Source: an uncultured Coriobacteriaceae bacterium
GTDB taxonomy: Bacteria > Actinomycetota > Coriobacteriia > Coriobacteriales > Coriobacteriaceae
DNA: 63,417 nt
NCBI GenBank assembly: GCA_949298635.1
Contig: CASFXG010000006.1
Location: 1 to 63,417, forward strand
Reading direction: 5' to 3'
The notes beneath the pieces were generated by a model, which saw nothing but the letters and a program-made list of their open reading frames with translations, had not been told where the DNA came from and made no database searches. Of the stretch, positions 12,701 to 30,686 are shown one piece after another (the stretch's first letter is position 1; every line of letters starts with the position of its first letter). The translations under genes were made by a program, and so were the position numbers.

Positions 12701-12780
12701 GCGCGATTAACACTTTGGGGACGGGGTCAGAAGTGTTGAATTCAACACTTCTGACCCCGTCCCCAAAGTGTTAATCGCGC
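12701..12780. repeat. Family F: perfect 80-bp palindrome
   Basis: The sequence is an exact palindrome with no spacer, centred on a GAATTC at 12738-12743. The outer block is GCGCGATTAACACTTTGGGG and the inner block ACGGGGTCAGAAGTGTTGAA. Shorter family F copies occur at 21497-21556, 28571-28634, 30557-30616 and 30623-30686. Confidence 0.95.
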
Positions 12781-12799: not shown

Positions 12800-13771
12800 T
12801 TAGCCGGCTTTGCTCACGTCCTTTTGGTAGCGTGCGTAGTTGTCGTCCCAGGATCGGTAGGCATCGTCGCCTGCGTGCGAGGGGACGTGGAACTCCCGGC
12901 GCAGGAGGACGCCCATGGCGCTCGTCGTCTTCTGGGCGCCGTGCAGGTTGAGATGGTCGCCCTTGTCGAACGTATCGCGCTCCCAGTCGATATCGACGCG
13001 TGAGCTTCCCATATTGAAGTCGATGTATGGCACGTCGAGCCCTGCGGCCGTCTGCTCGGCGCACGCATGGCGGCTCAGCGACCAGTTCTTCACGCTCGGT
13101 GTGCTCACCAAAACGAGCTGTGCGCCGTTCTCGCGGCAGATGCGCGCGATGTCGTCGAGGTACCACCGGTTGAGCGCAGGGATGCTCGCGGTCTCACCCT
13201 TCGGCTCCATATAGGTGCGCGACCGTTCGGCGCTGGCCGCGTTCACCGAGGTGCGCAGCCGATACCCCTTGTTCGGATCCGCCCACGTGGCGCGCGGCGT
13301 CGAGGTGAAATCCTCCGGCCGCAGGCTCTTCCAGCGGCTATGGTACTCGAAGACCGGGAAGATATCGGAGAGCGCGCGCATAGCGGCGAATCCCGTGGGC
13401 GTCGCGCGAAAGAGGCAGTTCGTCTCGAGCACCACGATGCGCGGGCGCTGGTTCTGCAAAGCCTTCAGGAGAATCGAGCGCGTGTAGGGGAGACGCTGGG
13501 CGCTCGTGGCAGCCACATACGAGGTGATGCCCTGCTCACCCCAGAGCTGGAGCGGCGAAAACGAGCAGTACGCCTCGGAATCGCCCAGGAAGAGCACGTC
13601 GATGCTATCGCGCGGCTCGCCGAGCACGCCGAAGGCGGGGGCGTCGGCCTGGCCGAATTCCACCTGGTTGTTCTTCGGGACGACGACGCGTGAGGCGAGG
13701 GCGAGCAGGCAGATTATGCCCGCTGTCACAAAGGCGGCGAAGACAACGTGCCGCATACGGGGAAGGTGCAT
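12800..13771 (-). CDS. DltD-like SGNH/GDSL-family membrane-anchored hydrolase
   Basis: A 323-residue protein with one N-terminal membrane anchor (about residues 8-30, VVFAAFVTAGIICLLALAS) and an extracytoplasmic SGNH domain. The nucleophile serine lies in LFLGDSEAYCS (S65) and the catalytic Asp-His pair fits GDHLNLHG near the C-terminus. It is last in the Dlt-like operon, directly after the MBOAT gene, the position DltD holds in D-alanylation operons. It is clearly shorter than and different from classical DltD (about 400 residues), so I call it DltD-like by context and fold only. Start ATG at 13771 follows AAAGGATCACC. Confidence 0.7.
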   Translation of the reverse strand: MHLPRMRHVVFAAFVTAGIICLLALASRVVVPKNNQVEFGQADAPAFGVLGEPRDSIDVLFLGDSEAYCSFSPLQLWGEQGITSYVAATSAQRLPYTRSILLKALQNQRPRIVVLETNCLFRATPTGFAAMRALSDIFPVFEYHSRWKSLRPEDFTSTPRATWADPNKGYRLRTSVNAASAERSRTYMEPKGETASIPALNRWYLDDIARICRENGAQLVLVSTPSVKNWSLSRHACAEQTAAGLDVPYIDFNMGSSRVDIDWERDTFDKGDHLNLHGAQKTTSAMGVLLRREFHVPSHAGDDAYRSWDDNYARYQKDVSKAG

Positions 13772-13872
13772 GGTGATCCTTTCGGTGGGATGCGGGAAGG
13801 AGGGGAACTTACCGCGGGAGCGCGCCGCGCCGTATCGTTATCCAGCGAATCTCTCGGCTTCCGCATCCCGTG

Positions 13873-15474
13873 CTAGAACGAGGCGTACATGGGGTCGACG
13901 GGGACATAGCCCGTGCCGTACGCGCCGAAGATGACGACGAGGAAGAAGAGCGCGCAGCACATAAGGCACGGCGCAAGATGAGAGACGCGCCATAGTCGCT
14001 CGGCGCTCCATGTTCCCCGCTCGCGCAGGACGCCCACGACGAGGAGTGCCACAAGTACGATGACCAGGCAGGCGGCATCGGCGGAGGAGAGGCCCAGCTT
14101 CGCCACGGTTCCGTCGAAGAGCGAACTAATCGAGGGATTCCGCACCGCCTCGGCGAGAAGCTTCAGCGCCGCTCTGCCGCCGGGCGCGCGGAAGAAAATC
14201 TCGCCCACCACGACGATGCCGAGCGTGCGGACGTGCTGCAGGGCGCGCCATACCGTGCCGTCGCGACGGATGCCCAGGCGCGGACACCATTCCTGCGCAA
14301 GCACTTCGGCAAATCCGCCGAGCCATATGACGGCAAACCAGTAGAGGCCGAAAAGTACGTACTGCCCGCCTGCGCCATGCCAGAGCCCGTTGCCGAACCA
14401 CACGGCGAGAAGCGCGACGCCGCTCGCCGCGACTGAGCCCATATGGTTTCCCAGCAGCTTGCGTGCCGCGTGACCCACATGCTTCACCGGGGCGCTGAGC
14501 GAGACGGGGTAGAACACGTAATCGCGGAGCCAGAGACCCAGCGTGATGTGCCAGCGCTGCCAGAATTCGGACGCGGTGCGCGAGAAGAAGGGCTGGCGGA
14601 AGTTCTCGGGCAGCACGATGCCAAAGATCCTGCCCGTGCCCACCACGAAATCCATGGTGCCCGAGAAATCGCAGTACAGCTGCAGCGTATAGAGGGCGCC
14701 CGCCAGCAGCGTGATGCTTCCGCCATAGGAGTCGGCGCTCGCGAAGACGGCCTTGACGAGCATGTTCACCCGGTTGGCGACCAGGTATTTCTTCGCAAGG
14801 CCCCAACAGATTCGCACAGCGCCCGTCGAAAGTCCCTCCGCCGTGATGGGGTTGCCCGCCATGAGGGCACCCGCGGTCTGGTCGTAGCGGCAGATGGGGC
14901 CTTCCATGATCTGCGGGAAGAAGGCGAGGAACAGGGCGAGACGACCGAGGTTTCTGTCGGCGGTGATGCGCTGGCGGTACACGTCGACGAGGTACGAGAT
15001 CGCCTGGAGCGTGTAGAACGAGATGCCGATAGGTGCGGCGATGCTGGCGACGTGTTCCGGCCAGGTGATGCCGAGGGGCGCAAGGAGCGGGGTCGCCAGC
15101 GGGGCGAGCACCCGTGCGGTGAAGGGAACGTACTTGAAGCAGAAGAGCATGCCCATGTTCACGAGGATGCCGAGGGTGAGCACAGCTTTCATGCGTCGTT
15201 GGTATGCGCGTTTCACCGTGCGCCGCTCGGCACCGGGCTCCTTGAGCGCCGCGGCACGCGCTTGGATGAGACGGCCGAGCCCCAGGCCGGTGAGCCAGAT
15301 CGAGGCTGTCGCGGCAAGGAGGAAGGCGATCAGCACCCCGCTGATGCTCCAGAAGAAGGCGTAGCTCGCCGCGAGGAGCACAGCCCAGCGCGTGCGGCGC
15401 GGAACGAGTTGGTAAGCGAGCATCGTCACCGGCAGGAAGGCGCCGAGCACCGCGAAGGAGAAGTACGATGTCAT
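13873..15474 (-). CDS. DltB-like MBOAT O-acyltransferase
   Basis: A 533-residue polytopic membrane protein with about 11-12 hydrophobic segments. The MBOAT core is seen in FWQRWHITLGLWLRDYVFYP and in GNGLWHGAGGQYVLFG, whose histidine is the conserved membrane-embedded catalytic residue. DltB moves D-alanine from the carrier protein across the membrane to lipoteichoic acid; by neighbourhood this protein should do the same for whatever acyl group the operon loads. ATG at 15474 follows AGGAGACCGTC, only 9 nt after the carrier-protein stop, so the two are translated together. A long opposite-strand open frame here is a composition artefact. Confidence 0.85.
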   Translation of the reverse strand: MTSYFSFAVLGAFLPVTMLAYQLVPRRTRWAVLLAASYAFFWSISGVLIAFLLAATASIWLTGLGLGRLIQARAAALKEPGAERRTVKRAYQRRMKAVLTLGILVNMGMLFCFKYVPFTARVLAPLATPLLAPLGITWPEHVASIAAPIGISFYTLQAISYLVDVYRQRITADRNLGRLALFLAFFPQIMEGPICRYDQTAGALMAGNPITAEGLSTGAVRICWGLAKKYLVANRVNMLVKAVFASADSYGGSITLLAGALYTLQLYCDFSGTMDFVVGTGRIFGIVLPENFRQPFFSRTASEFWQRWHITLGLWLRDYVFYPVSLSAPVKHVGHAARKLLGNHMGSVAASGVALLAVWFGNGLWHGAGGQYVLFGLYWFAVIWLGGFAEVLAQEWCPRLGIRRDGTVWRALQHVRTLGIVVVGEIFFRAPGGRAALKLLAEAVRNPSISSLFDGTVAKLGLSSADAACLVIVLVALLVVGVLRERGTWSAERLWRVSHLAPCLMCCALFFLVVIFGAYGTGYVPVDPMYASF

Positions 15475-15483
15475 GACGGTCTC

Positions 15484-15717
15484 CTAGAAGCCGCTCTCAC
15501 GCAGGCGGTCGACCATGGCCAAGATGCCGGCAACGGAGTTGAAGTTTTGCGGCACGATCTCCACAGCGGGGATGGTGATGTCGAAGGCGTCCTCAAGATC
15601 GGAGACGAGGGCGAGGATCGTAAGGGAGTCGAGCACGCGGCTATCGACAAGATCCGTCCTCGAGGCGAAGTCGACGCCGGATTTGAGCTCTTCGAGCAAG
15701 GAGATGATGGTTTCCAT
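15484..15717 (-). CDS. Acyl/peptidyl carrier protein (DltC-like)
   Basis: A 77-residue acidic carrier protein. The phosphopantetheine serine is S31 in RVLDSLTIL, the DSL motif shared by DltC and ACPs; the four-helix pattern (ISLLEELK, LTILALVSDLEDAF, VAGILAMVDRL) is clear. It lies between the PLP enzyme (62 nt upstream) and the MBOAT gene (9 nt downstream). In the Dlt pathway this protein carries the activated amino acid as a thioester. Start ATG at 15717 follows AAAGGAAGCTCCC. Confidence 0.88.
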   Translation of the reverse strand: METIISLLEELKSGVDFASRTDLVDSRVLDSLTILALVSDLEDAFDITIPAVEIVPQNFNSVAGILAMVDRLRESGF

Positions 15718-15779
15718 GGGAGCTTCCTTTCTATCGTCCTATCAATAGATGCGCAGTTGCATGCGTCTGGGGATTGCGG

Positions 15780-17084
15780 TTACGCGTCCGCGTGGGGGCT
15801 CGGTTGCTCGGATGCACAGAGTGCCCAACGGGGCGTGTTGAAGGGATTGGTCCGGATGCCCTCGCGCACCAGCCGGCTTCGCCCGCCTGCGTCGACGATG
15901 GCGATACGCGGAAGGTCGCGGCTCAAGAACAGCGAGATGCCCTCGGTCATGCTGTAGGCACCCGTCTTCTCGAAGGCGAGGACGCTGCCGAGCGTGAGTC
16001 CTGGCAGGGGAAGCTGCTTTGCAAGCAGGTCGTTCGTCGTGCAGAGCGCTCCGCACACGGTCCACGCTTCCGGTTCTGCGCCTTCACCCGGGGAAGGGGC
16101 GTCCACATCCGCGCGCTTCACCGACCCGGGAGAGCGCGGTTGCTCGGCGGTACGGCCGTTCACCAGATGCACCGGCGGCTGGCGCATGGCCATGGATTGG
16201 CCGAAGTACACGAGCTGGTTGATGCCGCCGTCGACGATGGCGTAGCTCTGGCTGCCCACGCGCTTCGCGTCGACGACTCTCGTGAGGTAGGTTCCGCATG
16301 AGGCAACGAGGCTCCGTCCGAGTTCCAGCACGATACGCCCGTCGAATTCGAGGCTCGCGAGCATGCGCGCATACGCGGTGAGGAACGCCGGCTCGTCGAG
16401 GTCGTCGCCGGGGAAGTACGCAACGGGGAGCCCGGGGCCGATCTCGAGCTCGCGCGGCCGCCAGCCGAGGGCGCGGTCGAGCTGAAGCATGAGCGAGGAG
16501 AGGGCGTCGAGTTCCCGGCCGAGCCGCGCGAGCGAGGTCTTCTGCGTACCGGTGAAGAGCTGGATGCCGAGCGGCTCGAGGTGCTCGTGGGCAAGCGCGC
16601 GCCGCGCCGCTTCGATAAGATCCTGCCGGTCCATGCCGAACTGGCTTCCGTTGCTTAAGCGCAGCAGCACGCGTACACGTTCGCTGCGACGGTTCGCGAG
16701 CGCCTCCACGAGGTCGAGTTGGCCGAGCGACTCGATCGTCACCGCTGCGGGCAACCGCGCGCCACCGAGCGCGCTCGCGATGGTCTCCTCGTCTTTGTAC
16801 ACGCCGGAGATAACGAGCTTCGACTGCGGCATGCCGAGCGTCCGGCAGATGCGGTATTCGCCGGGCGAGCACACCTCGAGCCGGTCGACGAGCGGAGCGA
16901 CCTCAGGCAGCACGAACGGGTTCGCCTTCATGGCGAAGCAGAGCTCAAGTGGCTCTTGAAAGACGCTTCGCAGGTAGTGTACGCGCTCGGCGAGGACGCG
17001 TTCGTCGAAGACGTAGAGCGGGGTGCCGTATGCCTGCGCAAGCGCGGAAAGCTCGGCGTCGGTGAGGTGCGAATCTGTCATCAT
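15780..17084 (-). CDS. Fold type III PLP-dependent decarboxylase-like enzyme in a Dlt-like operon
   Basis: A 434-residue protein of the diaminopimelate/ornithine decarboxylase superfamily. The PLP lysine is K53 in FAMKANPF, the phosphate loop is ELEIGPGLPV (usually a GGG loop), and the second-subunit active-site motif is CGALCTTND (C348, D352; compare GPxCESxD). The ring-stacking histidine of DAP decarboxylase (HxGSQ) is replaced: the local sequence is QLFTGTQ, with Phe. Residues 310-340 are a low-complexity insert (proline, alanine, glutamate). The gene starts with an ATGA overlap with the adenylating enzyme; a second ATG at 17081 has better spacing to AGGAGG. It is probably an amino-acid decarboxylase or racemase that prepares the operon's substrate. 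Confidence 0.75.
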   Translation of the reverse strand: MMTDSHLTDAELSALAQAYGTPLYVFDERVLAERVHYLRSVFQEPLELCFAMKANPFVLPEVAPLVDRLEVCSPGEYRICRTLGMPQSKLVISGVYKDEETIASALGGARLPAAVTIESLGQLDLVEALANRRSERVRVLLRLSNGSQFGMDRQDLIEAARRALAHEHLEPLGIQLFTGTQKTSLARLGRELDALSSLMLQLDRALGWRPRELEIGPGLPVAYFPGDDLDEPAFLTAYARMLASLEFDGRIVLELGRSLVASCGTYLTRVVDAKRVGSQSYAIVDGGINQLVYFGQSMAMRQPPVHLVNGRTAEQPRSPGSVKRADVDAPSPGEGAEPEAWTVCGALCTTNDLLAKQLPLPGLTLGSVLAFEKTGAYSMTEGISLFLSRDLPRIAIVDAGGRSRLVREGIRTNPFNTPRWALCASEQPSPHADA

Positions 17085-18820
17085 GACCTCCTCGTTTGCG
17101 TGACGGATGCAGGGGACGGGGTGACGGATGCAGGGGACGGGGTGACGGATGCGGGCAAAGGAGCGGCGGATGCCCCTCGCAGGGTGACGAGTGCAAGGAG
17201 CGCGCGGCGGTCGACCTTGCCGTTCTTGGTGAGCGGCATGGCGTCGACGCGGATCGCGCGGGCGGGGACGAGGGGTATGGGCAGGCGCTTCGCCACGGCG
17301 GCGCGGAGCTCCCTGCCTTCAGCCGTGCCCTCGAAGAAGGCGTAGATGCGATGCCGGCTTTCGTCATACGCGCAACGGCAGCGCTCGACGCCCGGCTCGC
17401 GTTCGAACGCGGTGTCGATCTCTTCGAGCTCGATGCGGTGGCCAAGATGCTTGATCTGGTTGTCGATGCGCCCGCAGAAGAAGAGCTCGCCGCCTTCTCC
17501 CACGCTTACACGGTCGCCCGTCTTATAGAGCGTCTCGGGGAGCGCGTGCGCGAGCGGGTTCTGCACGAACGCCGCCCCGGTGCGCTCGCGGTCGCCGTAG
17601 TATCCCAGCGCGATGTCCGGGCCGCCCACGTAGAGCTCGCCCTCTTGGCCGGGCTCTGTGACCGGACGTCCCGCCTCGTCGAGCACGAGCACGCGACGGT
17701 TGGGGAAGGTGTCGCCGAGCGGCAGGTTTCCCGGGTAGGTGCGTTCGCGGTCGACCACGTGGTAGAGGCAGTTACACGTGACCTCGGTGGGGCCGTAGAG
17801 GTTTGCAAAGGTCGCTGCAGGGAGCTTCTGCATCCAACGCGCCAAGTGCGGCATGGGCATGACCTCGCCCGAAAACAGCACGAGGCGGATACTCGGCAGC
17901 TCCCCACCGTCGAGCGCATGCAGGCTGCTTACGAGGCAGAGTGCCGCGACCGCCCATACAAGCGCCGTTACCCGGCGCTCGCGCAGCGCGTCGACGAGTT
18001 CCGCCGGGGTGCTGAAGAGGCGTCTGGGCAAGATGGCAAGGGTAGCGCCGACGGCGAGCGAGCCGTAGATGTCCTTGACGGAGATGTCGAAGTCGAAGGG
18101 TGCCTGGTTGCCCATGACATCGCGGGCTCGGATGCCGAACGTCTCGACGAAGCCGTCGATGAACCCGCAGATGGCGCGGTGGCTCACGGCCACGCCCTTG
18201 GGCGTTCCCGTCGATCCTGAGGTAAAGAGCACGTAGGCGGGAGCGGTGTCGACAAGGATTCGCGCCTGGGCGGCGAGCGCTTCGGTATTGCGGGAGTGGA
18301 CGAGGAGCTCCTCGACGGTGAAGATGCGCGCAGTGGGGAAGCAGGCGTTTGCCGCTTCACTCGTCTCCTTGTTTGCGATGACCAGCGGGGTTGCGCCGTC
18401 TGAGGAGAGCGTGCCGAAGATGCTCGCCGCGCGCTCCGCGGGCGTTCCGGGGTCGACGGGCACGTAGAAGCCGCCTGTCATGAGCGTGCCCAAGAAGGCG
18501 GCGAGCATGTGCGCACTCTTCTCCATGAAGATCACGACGGGCTGTGGGCGTGTGGGCGCGGTGGCCGGGGCGGGCGCGACTGCCGTGTCGCTTGCGTCCG
18601 CGAGGGTCGTTTGCATCTCCAAGAGCGCGCTGCCCACCCGCTCGCTCATGGCTTCGAGCTCGCGGTAGGTATAGGAGCCGGTCTCGTCCACCACCGCTAC
18701 GGATTCCGGTCGGGTACGTGCTGCCCTCTCGAGGTAGGTGAGAGGCGTCGAGACGCGGTATCGTTCGTGTGGCGCGCTCGCGGCCTCGTGGGTGCGTCGG
18801 AGCGCTCTGCGGTCGTCCAT
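17081..18820 (-). CDS. DltA-like amino acid adenylating enzyme
   Basis: A 579-residue ANL-superfamily ligase. A3 is VLFTSGSTGTPKGVAVSH, the substrate-pocket strand is APFDFDISVKDIYGSL (close to DltA, with the aspartate that holds an alpha-amino group), A5 is NLYGPTEVTCN, A7 is LYKTGD and A10 is KNGKVDR. It should adenylate an amino acid and load the carrier protein encoded two genes later. The last 20 residues are an extra tail made of a repeated 7-residue unit (SVTPSPA) from a 21-bp tandem repeat at 17100-17157. ATG at 18820 follows GGGAGGAAGCCC; an upstream in-frame ATG at 18844 lacks a ribosome site. It is first in the Dlt-like operon. Confidence 0.85.
   Translation of the reverse strand: MDDRRALRRTHEAASAPHERYRVSTPLTYLERAARTRPESVAVVDETGSYTYRELEAMSERVGSALLEMQTTLADASDTAVAPAPATAPTRPQPVVIFMEKSAHMLAAFLGTLMTGGFYVPVDPGTPAERAASIFGTLSSDGATPLVIANKETSEAANACFPTARIFTVEELLVHSRNTEALAAQARILVDTAPAYVLFTSGSTGTPKGVAVSHRAICGFIDGFVETFGIRARDVMGNQAPFDFDISVKDIYGSLAVGATLAILPRRLFSTPAELVDALRERRVTALVWAVAALCLVSSLHALDGGELPSIRLVLFSGEVMPMPHLARWMQKLPAATFANLYGPTEVTCNCLYHVVDRERTYPGNLPLGDTFPNRRVLVLDEAGRPVTEPGQEGELYVGGPDIALGYYGDRERTGAAFVQNPLAHALPETLYKTGDRVSVGEGGELFFCGRIDNQIKHLGHRIELEEIDTAFEREPGVERCRCAYDESRHRIYAFFEGTAEGRELRAAVAKRLPIPLVPARAIRVDAMPLTKNGKVDRRALLALVTLRGASAAPLPASVTPSPASVTPSPASVTQTRRS
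17100..17157. repeat. 21-bp tandem repeat at the 3' end of the adenylating-enzyme gene
   Basis: Two full 21-bp units (17100-17120, 17121-17141) and most of a third are identical (GTGACGGATGCAGGGGACGG plus G). The unit is a multiple of three, so it adds heptapeptides to the protein without a frameshift, and copy number may vary between strains. Confidence 0.85.
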
Positions 18821-18859
18821 GGGCTTCCTCCCAAGTCGTTCCATCTGATTCGACGTAGG

Positions 18860-19006: not shown

Positions 19007-20656
19007 TCACGGCGCGACGGGTAGGTCGATGACGAACTCCGTGGCGAAGCCCTCGCGCGGCGGCTTCGCCACGTAGATCGTGCCGCTCATGAGGCTGATG
19101 CACTTCTGCGTGATGGCGAGCCCGAGGCCTGTGCCTGCGTTCGAAGTGCGGGCTGTGTTGCGGGTCACGAACGGGTCGAAGAGCGTGTCGGCGATCTCGG
19201 GCGCGATGCCGTCTCCGGTATCGGCGACCGAGATGCGCACAAGCTCGTCGCGCGGGTTTGCGGCGGGTACGCGCTCACAGAAGATGGTGACCTGCGTTCC
19301 TGCCGGGTTGTGCTGGCATGCGTTGCCCACCAGGTTGAGCAGGGCGCGGCGGAACAGCTGCTCGTCTACGAGTATGGGAGGAAGTTCCTCGGCAGCGGCA
19401 TTCGGCAGCTTCACCTCGACGCTGCAGTCGGACTGTTCGGCAACAGACGTCGCCTCATGTGCGATATCACGTAGCAGTTCGCCCACGTGCCGCCGCTCGA
19501 GGTGCGGGATGTAATCGGGGTGATCCATCTTTGCGTATGCGGCGAGCGTGTCGATGAGCTCGCTTGCGGCGAGCGACTTCTCGGCGATGATGCGGTGGTA
19601 GCGCTGTTCATCCTCTTCGGGGACGCGTCCGTCGCAAAACGCCATGGCATAGCCGTAGAGCACGGCAAGCGGTGTCTTGAGGTCGTGCGAGAGGTCGGCG
19701 ACGATGCGCTTCTGGCCGTCGCGGGCGTCGCGCAGCATGTCCATGAGGCCAATGAAATTGCGGTAGACGGGCGCGAGCTCGACGGGGATGGTCTTCTCGG
19801 CCTCCTTCGCCCGCGCGATGCCGTCACCGCCCCCGTCTGCTCGGTAGGCGTCGATCGCCCGGTCGAGGGGGAGCGTCACGCGCTTCATCTGGTGCACGAG
19901 GTACCACGCTGCGCCGCCGGTGAGGACGATTGCTACGGGTATGGCATAGAGCCAAAGGCGGTTGGCCTCCGCGACCGCACGCGCGAACGACGCGTCGGTG
20001 ACGAGCGGCGAGACGAGCACGAGCGTGCGTCCCGCTCCCGAGACGGTGGTGTAGTCGTAGCGCTCGACCGCCATGCGGGCGTTGTAGGCGCCTTTGATGA
20101 AGTCGAATTCGCGCTGCGTGAGCTGGCCGCGGTCGGCGAAGAGGTCGCCTTCGACCACCGTAAGGTCTTCGTCGAGGACGCACCAGGCGTCGGCATCCAT
20201 CATGCCGGATTCACCGTCGAGTCCGCAGAGCGTGATGCGGTAGCGCGTGGAGCCGTCGTTATCTTCGCGCAGGACTTCGTAGAACTGATTGTCCTCGTAG
20301 TCGTTGATCATCTCGAGGTCGCTCGAGAGGATGCGCTCGGCGACCTTCTCGCTCGAGGCGTAGAGCCTGGCGCCGCGCGCGTCGAAGATCGCGATGCCGC
20401 ACGAGGCGAGCTCGGGGGTGTCGAGCTCGTTGAAGCGGTCGTGCTCGAGGGCGGTCTCGTAGGTCAGGACGGTTTCCATGGTGGGGAAGGCGTTCGCGAG
20501 GCGCGTGTCGCTTATGACCGTGACGCCTGCGACGAGGGCGAGGAGCAGCACGGCGTATATGACGATGCAGGCCAGGCAGCGCCGCGCGAGGCTGCTCGAG
20601 GCACGGGCGAGGTGTTCAGATGCCCAGGTACGGGCACGAAGAAAGAAGTTATCCAT
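19007..20656 (-). CDS. Membrane sensor histidine kinase
   Basis: A 549-residue two-component sensor. TM1 is about residues 28-49, a 180-residue extracytoplasmic sensing domain follows, TM2 is about 236-255 (LYAIPVAIVLTGGAAWYLVH), then a linker, the HisKA box IVADLSHDLKTPLAVLYG with phospho-acceptor H324, and HATPase motifs NLVGNACQHNP, DTGDGI and GTGLGLAI. ATG at 20656 overlaps the regulator's stop codon by 8 nt (ATGGATAA), implying translational coupling; a TTG 21 nt upstream is less likely. The Dlt-like operon begins 186 nt downstream in the same direction, which suggests cell-envelope stress or cationic peptide sensing by analogy with known dlt regulators. Confidence 0.92.
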   Translation of the reverse strand: MDNFFLRARTWASEHLARASSSLARRCLACIVIYAVLLLALVAGVTVISDTRLANAFPTMETVLTYETALEHDRFNELDTPELASCGIAIFDARGARLYASSEKVAERILSSDLEMINDYEDNQFYEVLREDNDGSTRYRITLCGLDGESGMMDADAWCVLDEDLTVVEGDLFADRGQLTQREFDFIKGAYNARMAVERYDYTTVSGAGRTLVLVSPLVTDASFARAVAEANRLWLYAIPVAIVLTGGAAWYLVHQMKRVTLPLDRAIDAYRADGGGDGIARAKEAEKTIPVELAPVYRNFIGLMDMLRDARDGQKRIVADLSHDLKTPLAVLYGYAMAFCDGRVPEEDEQRYHRIIAEKSLAASELIDTLAAYAKMDHPDYIPHLERRHVGELLRDIAHEATSVAEQSDCSVEVKLPNAAAEELPPILVDEQLFRRALLNLVGNACQHNPAGTQVTIFCERVPAANPRDELVRISVADTGDGIAPEIADTLFDPFVTRNTARTSNAGTGLGLAITQKCISLMSGTIYVAKPPREGFATEFVIDLPVAP

Positions 20657-21395
20657 TGAATCGGTATCCAATGCCACGGACGGTTTCGATATAGCGGGGG
20701 TTGAGCGGGTCGTCTTCGAGTTTGGCGCGGATGTTCGAGATGTGCACCATCACGCTCGATTCCCCGCCAAAGGGCTCGCCGCTGATCTGGGCATAGAGCT
20801 GCGCCTTGTCGAACACCCGGCCGGGCGCCGCCATGAGGGCGGCCATGATTTTGAGCTCGGCTGTGGTGAGCGGGACGGTTTCACCGCGCTTGGTGAGTAG
20901 GAAGCGGGCTTTGTCGAAGACGAGGTCGCCTGCGACGAGGGTATCCGCCGGCTCTTGCACCGAGGCGGTGCGCCGTGCGGACGGGAGCTCGACGGTGCTT
21001 GCGGAGGAGCTGTCGCTCTTTGGCGCGTTTGTGCCATTCGCGCGCCTGAGCATGGCGCGGATGAGCGCGGTGACTTCGAGCGGGTCGAAGGGTTTTGCGA
21101 TGAACCCGTCTGCCCCGGCGTCGAGCCCCACGATCTTATCGGCTGGCTGCGAGCGCGCCGAGATGATGATGACGGGAATGCCGCTCTCGCGGCGGAGCGC
21201 CTTGATGAAATCATAGCCGTTCATGCGCGGCATCATGATGTCGACGAGGGCGATGTCGACGTGGTGCTCGCGCGCGAGCTCGAGCGCCTGCTCGCCGTCG
21301 TTGGAAGCAAGCACATCGTAGCCGCTGCCCGAGATGTAGAGCCGCAGCAGCTCCACGATGTCCTTATCATCCTCTGCGATGAGCACGGTTGCCAT
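20649..21395 (-). CDS. OmpR/PhoB-family response regulator
   Basis: A 248-residue regulator. The receiver domain (1-118) has the acidic pair EDD at residues 8-10, the phosphorylated aspartate D52 in ALVDIMMPRMNGYD, a conserved S/T in IIISARSQ and the lysine in FIAKPFDPLE. A 40-residue serine/alanine-rich linker leads to a winged-helix DNA-binding domain ending in the typical YIETVRGIGYRFNG. ATG at 21395 follows AAGGGGGTATCC; an earlier in-frame start at 21428 lacks a ribosome site. It forms an operon with the kinase downstream. Confidence 0.93.
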   Translation of the reverse strand: MATVLIAEDDKDIVELLRLYISGSGYDVLASNDGEQALELAREHHVDIALVDIMMPRMNGYDFIKALRRESGIPVIIISARSQPADKIVGLDAGADGFIAKPFDPLEVTALIRAMLRRANGTNAPKSDSSSASTVELPSARRTASVQEPADTLVAGDLVFDKARFLLTKRGETVPLTTAELKIMAALMAAPGRVFDKAQLYAQISGEPFGGESSVMVHISNIRAKLEDDPLNPRYIETVRGIGYRFNG

Positions 21396-21496
21396 GGATA
21401 CCCCCTTCACGTGCCGCGATTGTAGCAAGGCGGGGAAGCGCGGGGGCGGTCTGCCACGGGCATTCCATAGTGCTGAAGGAAGAATTAAGTGTGTGT

Positions 21497-21556
21497 CACT
21501 TTGGGGACGGGGTCAAAAGTGTTGAATTCAACACTTTTGACCCCGTCCCCAAAGTG
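21497..21556. repeat. Family F palindrome (60 bp, perfect)
   Basis: Exact palindrome centred on GAATTC: CACTTTGGGGACGGGGTC and AAAAGTGTTGAA on the left, mirrored on the right. Confidence 0.9.
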
Positions 21557-30556: not shown

Positions 30557-30686
30557 CACTTTGGGGACGGGTACGTTCGTGTCGAAAACGTCACAAAGAT
30601 ACCCGTCCCGAAAGTGACGCCCAACACTTTGGGGACGGGGTCAAAAGTGTTGAATTTGGTACTTTTAACCCCGTCCCCAAAGTGTT
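30557..30686. repeat. Two adjacent family F palindromes
   Basis: 30557-30616 (CACTTTGGGGACGGGTAC and GATACCCGTCCCGAAAGTG) and 30623-30686 (AACACTTTGGGGACGGGGTC and GACC-type mirror ending AAAGTGTT). The two copies are separated by 6 nt and together form most of the leader of the PurF-like gene. Confidence 0.85.

Follow-up and report, generated by a model that had tools for sequence, protein, structure and literature searches.

In many Gram-positive bacteria, D-alanylation of teichoic acids governs surface charge, host signalling and resistance to cationic peptides. Then, could a pathway of the Dlt type carry a different amino acyl group in place of D-alanine? Here, we describe a five-gene operon in a 63,417-nucleotide stretch of DNA from an uncultured Coriobacteriaceae gut bacterium (GenBank assembly GCA_949298635.1, contig CASFXG010000006.1, positions 1 to 63,417; this whole stretch is called the window below). 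Like the Dlt pathway, the operon encodes a stand-alone adenylation (A) enzyme, a carrier, a DltB-like MBOAT protein and a membrane SGNH protein; unlike the Dlt pathway, it adds a gene for a decarboxylase-type pyridoxal phosphate (PLP) enzyme, and the order is A-PLP-C-B-D. Related enzyme sets have been described elsewhere. In the butirosin system BtrJ-BtrI-BtrK, glutamate bound to the carrier BtrI is decarboxylated by BtrK, which gives a 4-aminobutyrate (GABA) thioester (PMC7857480). In the vicenistatin system, VinL is loaded with 3-methylaspartate by VinN, and VinO acts as the decarboxylase after thioester formation only; FlvN activates aspartate in the pathway to fluvirucin B2, which has a beta-alanine starter (PMC11284099). 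For the cell envelope, AlmE is a DltA-like adenylation enzyme that serves aminoacylation, namely the glycylation of Vibrio lipid A (PMC11253843). The exosortase A-associated pair TIGR03098/TIGR03099 comprises families of AMP-forming ligases and fold type III PLP enzymes. In the literature searched, no description of a Dlt-type operon with a decarboxylase was found, and nothing relevant on beta-alanine on teichoic acid or on the function of the exosortase ligase.

Each of these systems also differs from the operon. The butirosin ligase is an ATP-grasp enzyme and not a DltA-type adenylation enzyme, and the butirosin product enters an aminoglycoside. The VinN and FlvN systems share with the operon an adenylation enzyme, a stand-alone acyl carrier protein (ACP) and a PLP decarboxylase that acts after loading, but end in a polyketide macrolactam instead of MBOAT/SGNH transfer. 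AlmE differs in using glycine and a Gram-negative lipopolysaccharide, and its system is not known to include a PLP enzyme. The genes of TIGR03098 and TIGR03099 are neighbours, and every operon PLP member scanned matches TIGR03099; however, the window proteins score far below both cut-offs (165.6 against 592.35 bits for TIGR03098, and 168.6 against 478.45 bits for TIGR03099). Each component of the operon is of a known kind, and what is new is the joining of a Dlt-type envelope system with the carrier-bound decarboxylation proposed here.

We consider it probable that the operon loads an acidic amino acid by its side chain, decarboxylates it on the carrier and delivers the product to an envelope polymer by way of the MBOAT and SGNH proteins. 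We also lean, by a little, towards the wider reading that many gut Clostridia, Coriobacteriia and Erysipelotrichia have exchanged D-alanylation for beta-alanine or GABA made on the carrier and placed on an envelope polymer. The five genes are as follows.

17081 to 18820, minus strand: DltA-like stand-alone A enzyme with an altered specificity pocket (TIGR01733, 322.8 bits; TIGR01734, 265.5 bits)
15780 to 17084, minus strand: BtrK-like PLP enzyme of fold type III, predicted to decarboxylate a carrier-bound amino acid (PF02784/PF00278)
15484 to 15717, minus strand: acyl carrier protein with phosphopantetheine Ser31 in a DSL motif (PF00550)
13873 to 15474, minus strand: DltB-like MBOAT acyltransferase with His366 in NGLWHG (TIGR04091, 146.2 bits)
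12800 to 13771, minus strand: membrane-anchored SGNH-fold protein, DltD-like (AlphaFold model, Foldseek and motifs)

They form a co-directional run on the minus strand from 18820 to 12800, with the carrier gene directly downstream of the PLP gene. The original prediction, made from the letters of the sequence, had proposed these five genes in this order; the first four are confirmed by their Pfam and NCBIfam classes (AMP-binding/AA-adenyl-dom, Orn/DAP/Arg decarboxylase N and C, PP-binding and MBOAT/LTA_dltB, respectively) and the SGNH protein by its predicted structure. The tight coupling that it described between the A and PLP genes is also seen, as an ATGA overlap at 17084-17081 joining the stop of the first and the start of the second. 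The A gene has an ATG at 18820 with a good ribosome-binding site (GGGAGG), and the mechanical open reading frame (ORF) of 587 residues begins at 18844. Scans for promoters and terminators gave no signal clearly above shuffled sequence.

When genome contigs were scanned with the window PLP protein, a family set of 80 loci was obtained, mostly from Coriobacteriia and gut Clostridia (Lachnospiraceae, Oscillospiraceae), with a few from Erysipelotrichaceae. Among Coriobacteriia, the PLP family was found in 40 of 298 genomes and 21 of 124 genera. The complete arrangement A-PLP-ACP-MBOAT-SGNH recurs with identical order and direction in 66 of the 80 loci, which is far beyond chance and marks it as a real and conserved system, and the A, PLP and ACP genes occur together in 76. 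Several of the loci outside the 66 are interrupted by contig ends; in two others (L046 and L082) the MBOAT and SGNH genes are located upstream of A, and one locus (L076) has a second copy of the ACP-MBOAT-SGNH set.

The specificity pocket of the A enzyme was compared by aligning the family, of which 79 sequences were readable, with Bacillus cereus DltA (3dhv). In DltA, Leu198, Met201 and Cys269 surround the methyl group of D-alanine (PMC4176424, PMC8972799, PMC11253843). All 79 family members have Val or Ile, Lys and Ser at these three sites, which are Ile254, Lys257 and Ser325 in the window enzyme (numbering of the 587-residue ORF). Asp197 of DltA, which binds the amino group, is retained in all 79, a further likeness to the Dlt pathway, and Lys403, Arg408 and Lys492 of DltA are retained in the window enzyme. 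The full specificity code is near-constant over the family, including the loci without an MBOAT gene, so that one substrate is likely throughout. To judge by sequence, the invariant pocket lysine suggests that the substrate has a second carboxylate; glutamate-type adenylation codes also have Lys at the position equivalent to DltA Met201. Such a lysine suits a free carboxylate, which is present only before decarboxylation, and therefore argues that loading precedes decarboxylation. Together with the decarboxylase encoded downstream, it is the main argument for that order of steps.

Among specific families, the A enzyme scores best with amino acid adenylation domains and with DltA, and its PDB alignments are dominated by linear gramicidin synthase. 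An ordinary DltA is ruled out by the TIGR01734 score, which lies far under the equivalog cut-off of 559.85 bits, by the replaced D-alanine pocket and by the 21 operon genomes, none of which encodes a DltA above that cut-off when checked for a classical copy elsewhere, as had been proposed. It should be noted that one Coriobacteriaceae metagenome assembly with the new operon (L116) also holds a classical-looking dltA-dltB pair, and that this bin may be mixed. The 3' end of the window A gene (17100-17152) contains an exact 21-bp tandem repeat of 2.5 copies, encoding a tail rich in Pro, Ser and Thr, where most of the aligned family has a gap.

By its sequence features, the PLP enzyme is BtrK-like and not LysA. 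The active-site Lys, Cys and Asp, which the original prediction had found to be kept, are Lys53, Cys348 and Asp352 and are invariant in 81 of 81 family sequences, as are the pyridine Glu and the Arg and Tyr of the active site. The predicted loss of the histidine of HxGSQ also extends to the family: this position is Phe177 in the window, Phe in 61 and Tyr in 20 of the 81 sequences, and His in none. In addition, where LysA has a Glu after the catalytic Cys, 75 sequences have Thr and 6 have Ser, and the LysA motif CE(S/T)xD reads CTxxD in the window protein. BtrK, which likewise has a carrier partner, shows the same two changes (YTGTQ and CTPED), and the aromatic/GTQ and CT motifs of the window enzyme are of this BtrK type. 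When the family profile was compared with the PDB, BtrK (2j66/7ru7) ranked first with 196 bits, against 171 bits for the best LysA, whereas the window sequence alone matches both LysA and BtrK; its identity to BtrK is about 22% (structure-based). Against the LysA model TIGR01048 the window protein scores 167.5 bits and does not reach the cut-off of 297.9. A phylogeny, as proposed in the original prediction, was run by maximum likelihood, and a branch with 100/99 support separates the operon family, BtrK and A-linked TIGR03099-like actinobacterial enzymes from LysA; the tree is unrooted and its LysA sequences come for the most part from the same genomes. A different pair was also observed in Actinomycetota f40 and related genomes (L165-L185), where a DltA-like A enzyme with the pocket motifs FDAGLNQF and YGLTEAFRST adjoins a TIGR03099-like PLP enzyme; the L165 enzyme scores 424 bits with TIGR03099, slightly below the cut-off.

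The phosphopantetheine Ser of the carrier is invariant (80/80). The MBOAT protein is below the TIGR04091 cut-off of 375 bits, but the PDB matches of its family profile are the DltB structures 6bug and 8jem only, and the His of WHG is invariant in the family. Neither Pfam nor NCBIfam matches the SGNH gene, and a PDB sequence search with its family gave chance-level matches only. Its AlphaFold model (pLDDT 96.1) has an N-terminal helix at residues 3-30, which in the model looks like a membrane anchor, and Foldseek matches it to SGNH hydrolases and to enterococcal DltD (6pfx/6o93), the TM-scores with DltD being just about 0.4. The SGNH motifs are conserved, namely GDS (Ser65) and D-x-GDHxN (Asp269, Asp272 and His273). 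In L011 (9037-13026), a single MBOAT gene is followed by four tandem SGNH-family genes, and there are two such genes in L003.

We infer the substrate, the activation through the side chain, the timing on the carrier, the product, the acceptor polymer and the regulation as follows. The A enzyme would adenylate a dicarboxylic amino acid through its side-chain carboxyl, preferably aspartate and otherwise glutamate, and load it onto the ACP. The PLP enzyme would then remove the free alpha-carboxyl from the ACP-bound substrate to yield beta-alanyl-S-ACP or 4-aminobutyryl-S-ACP. Movement of the cationic acyl group through the membrane would fall to the MBOAT protein, and the DltD-like SGNH protein would help to hand it to the envelope polymer. 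BtrK, VinN/VinL/VinO and FlvN provide precedents for action in this order by a loading enzyme, an ACP and a PLP enzyme. The persistence of the trio with an unchanged pocket at loci that have no MBOAT gene nearby also favours the proposed pathway. The acceptor may be a lipoteichoic-type polymer, since an LtaS-like protein is present in the window's own genome (56 bits, far under the equivalog cut-off) and the teichoic acid polymerase family PF04464 was not found in that 86%-complete genome. The original idea of a Dlt-like pathway for a group other than D-alanine is supported in its core by the family-wide pocket change and by the kinship of the PLP enzyme with BtrK. Among the products it offered as examples, beta-alanine fits; lysine does not, in view of the CTxxD motif and of the true LysA found elsewhere in 20 of 21 operon genomes.

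Several observations weigh against side-chain loading and decarboxylation on the carrier. The pocket lysine could, as far as the alignment tells, bind the side chain of an acidic amino acid activated at its alpha-carboxyl; with alpha-carboxyl activation, the PLP enzyme would be unable to decarboxylate the loaded amino acid. Taking the VinN positions as quoted in reviews, Phe231 and the carboxylate-side residues Lys330 and Arg331 are absent from the A-enzyme family, which has Val/Ile, Cys and Asn instead, and the site of Ser299 does have Ser. Near the beta13-beta14 loop, which is one residue shorter in VinN-type enzymes, the family has a one-residue gap relative to DltA, the placement of which is ambiguous. 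As for the PLP enzyme, the stem of the operon clade is long in the unrooted tree, and only the split that parts this clade and BtrK from LysA is claimed. By fold alone, the structures of LysA and of D-Orn/Lys decarboxylase rank level with or above BtrK, and the TIGR03099 score of the window protein is level with its TIGR01048 score, both being under the cut-offs.

How do other explanations compare? The PLP enzyme might decarboxylate free aspartate or glutamate and the A enzyme load the finished omega-amino acid, which would lead to the same decoration by another order of steps. We regard this as unlikely, although it leaves the gene set and the product class unchanged and such fold III decarboxylases also use free amino acids (PMC7857480): neither beta-alanine nor GABA offers an obvious partner for the invariant Lys257, the substrate motif is CT, as in BtrK, and not CE, and both BtrK, the nearest solved relative, and VinO use carrier-bound substrates (PMC7857480, PMC11284099).

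There is a slim chance that the A enzyme loads, by the alpha-carboxyl, an alpha-amino acid that is then epimerised (for example from L- to D-aminoacyl-ACP) or changed in some other way on the carrier by the PLP enzyme; this would amount to D-aminoacylation with a built-in racemase. The DltA-like A enzyme and the DltB- and DltD-like transfer proteins would suit it, and Pfam Ala_racemase_N matches the PLP protein at 6e-7. However, the racemase domain is outscored by the two decarboxylase domains (N and C), Cys348 and Asp352 of the decarboxylases are invariant, and an alanine racemase is already encoded on contig 51 of the same genome. Consequently, the racemisation product that had been suggested finds no positive support.

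That the omega-aminoacyl group ends up in a small molecule (peptide, lipid or glycan) and not on an envelope polymer seems improbable to us, although A-PLP-ACP trios are known in natural product pathways (PMC11284099) and eight loci (L042, L043, L052, L053, L057, L061, L067 and L077) have the trio without an adjacent MBOAT gene. These trios keep the same A-enzyme pocket, and those examined sit in polysaccharide clusters; in L043, L052 and L061, Pfam finds glycosyltransferases, DegT aminotransferase, UDP-sugar dehydrogenase, EpsG or polysaccharide pyruvyl transferase among the genes. On the other side, most loci include linked MBOAT and SGNH partners, whose solved relatives include DltB and DltD, and no nonribosomal peptide synthetase or polyketide synthase is among the operon-flanking genes in the stretch examined (9-24 kb). 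In L043, L057, L061 and L077, genes for DegT aminotransferase, hexapeptide transferase and EpsG accompany the trio in an apparent exopolysaccharide cluster, where it may serve omega-aminoacyl transfer to an amino sugar.

Finally, that a captured lysA merely lies next to an ordinary dlt operon, with the PLP gene working in lysine synthesis and outside the modification, is hardly credible: the PLP protein is indeed the only LysA-family match in its own incomplete genome, but the A, PLP and ACP genes are linked almost throughout the family, the HxGSQ and CE motifs are gone as are the D-alanine pocket residues of the A enzyme, and a separate LysA (262-435 bits) is present in 20 of the 21 operon genomes, Erysipelothrix inopinata being the sole one where none was found. 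The same points rule out that the PLP gene is simply lysA. The original prediction would have taken a sole lysA as a sign against it, and literally no second LysA was found in the window's genome; this carries little weight, because a genome of the same genus (G101) and many others hold both the operon-type PLP protein and a true LysA. Another congener, G320 (99% complete), has the operon-type protein and lacks LysA. The window genome and Enorma massiliensis appear to share a genus, and the location of LysA is identical in E. massiliensis (G001, the genome of L003) and G101.

Directly upstream of the operon (21428-19007), a two-component system is encoded.

20649 to 21428, minus strand: OmpR-type response regulator, probable regulator (Response_reg and Trans_reg_C)
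19007 to 20677, minus strand: sensor histidine kinase of the two-component system, probable regulator (HisKA and HATPase_c)

It would probably control the operon. Of the 80 loci, 35 have such a system in the fetched flank, either upstream or downstream, and dlt operons are commonly under two-component control. In addition, a perfect palindrome, GGGGTCA(A/G)AAGTGTTGAATTCAACACTT(T/C)TGACCCC, occurs at 12723-12758 and 21509-21544 of the window, with a half copy at 30636-30651. The first two copies exactly flank the block from the response regulator to the SGNH gene, and the genome has 16 copies in all, against 0 for the reversed control.

If the proposed pathway is true, current annotation misreads the surface chemistry of common gut lineages, in which the operon genes come out as weak matches to dltA and lysA. 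A beta-alanine or GABA ester should also be more stable than a D-alanyl ester, as its amine is more distant from the ester. Models of antimicrobial-peptide resistance and immune recognition for these gut lineages would then need revision, and carrier-bound decarboxylation would reach beyond antibiotic pathways into the general cell envelope.

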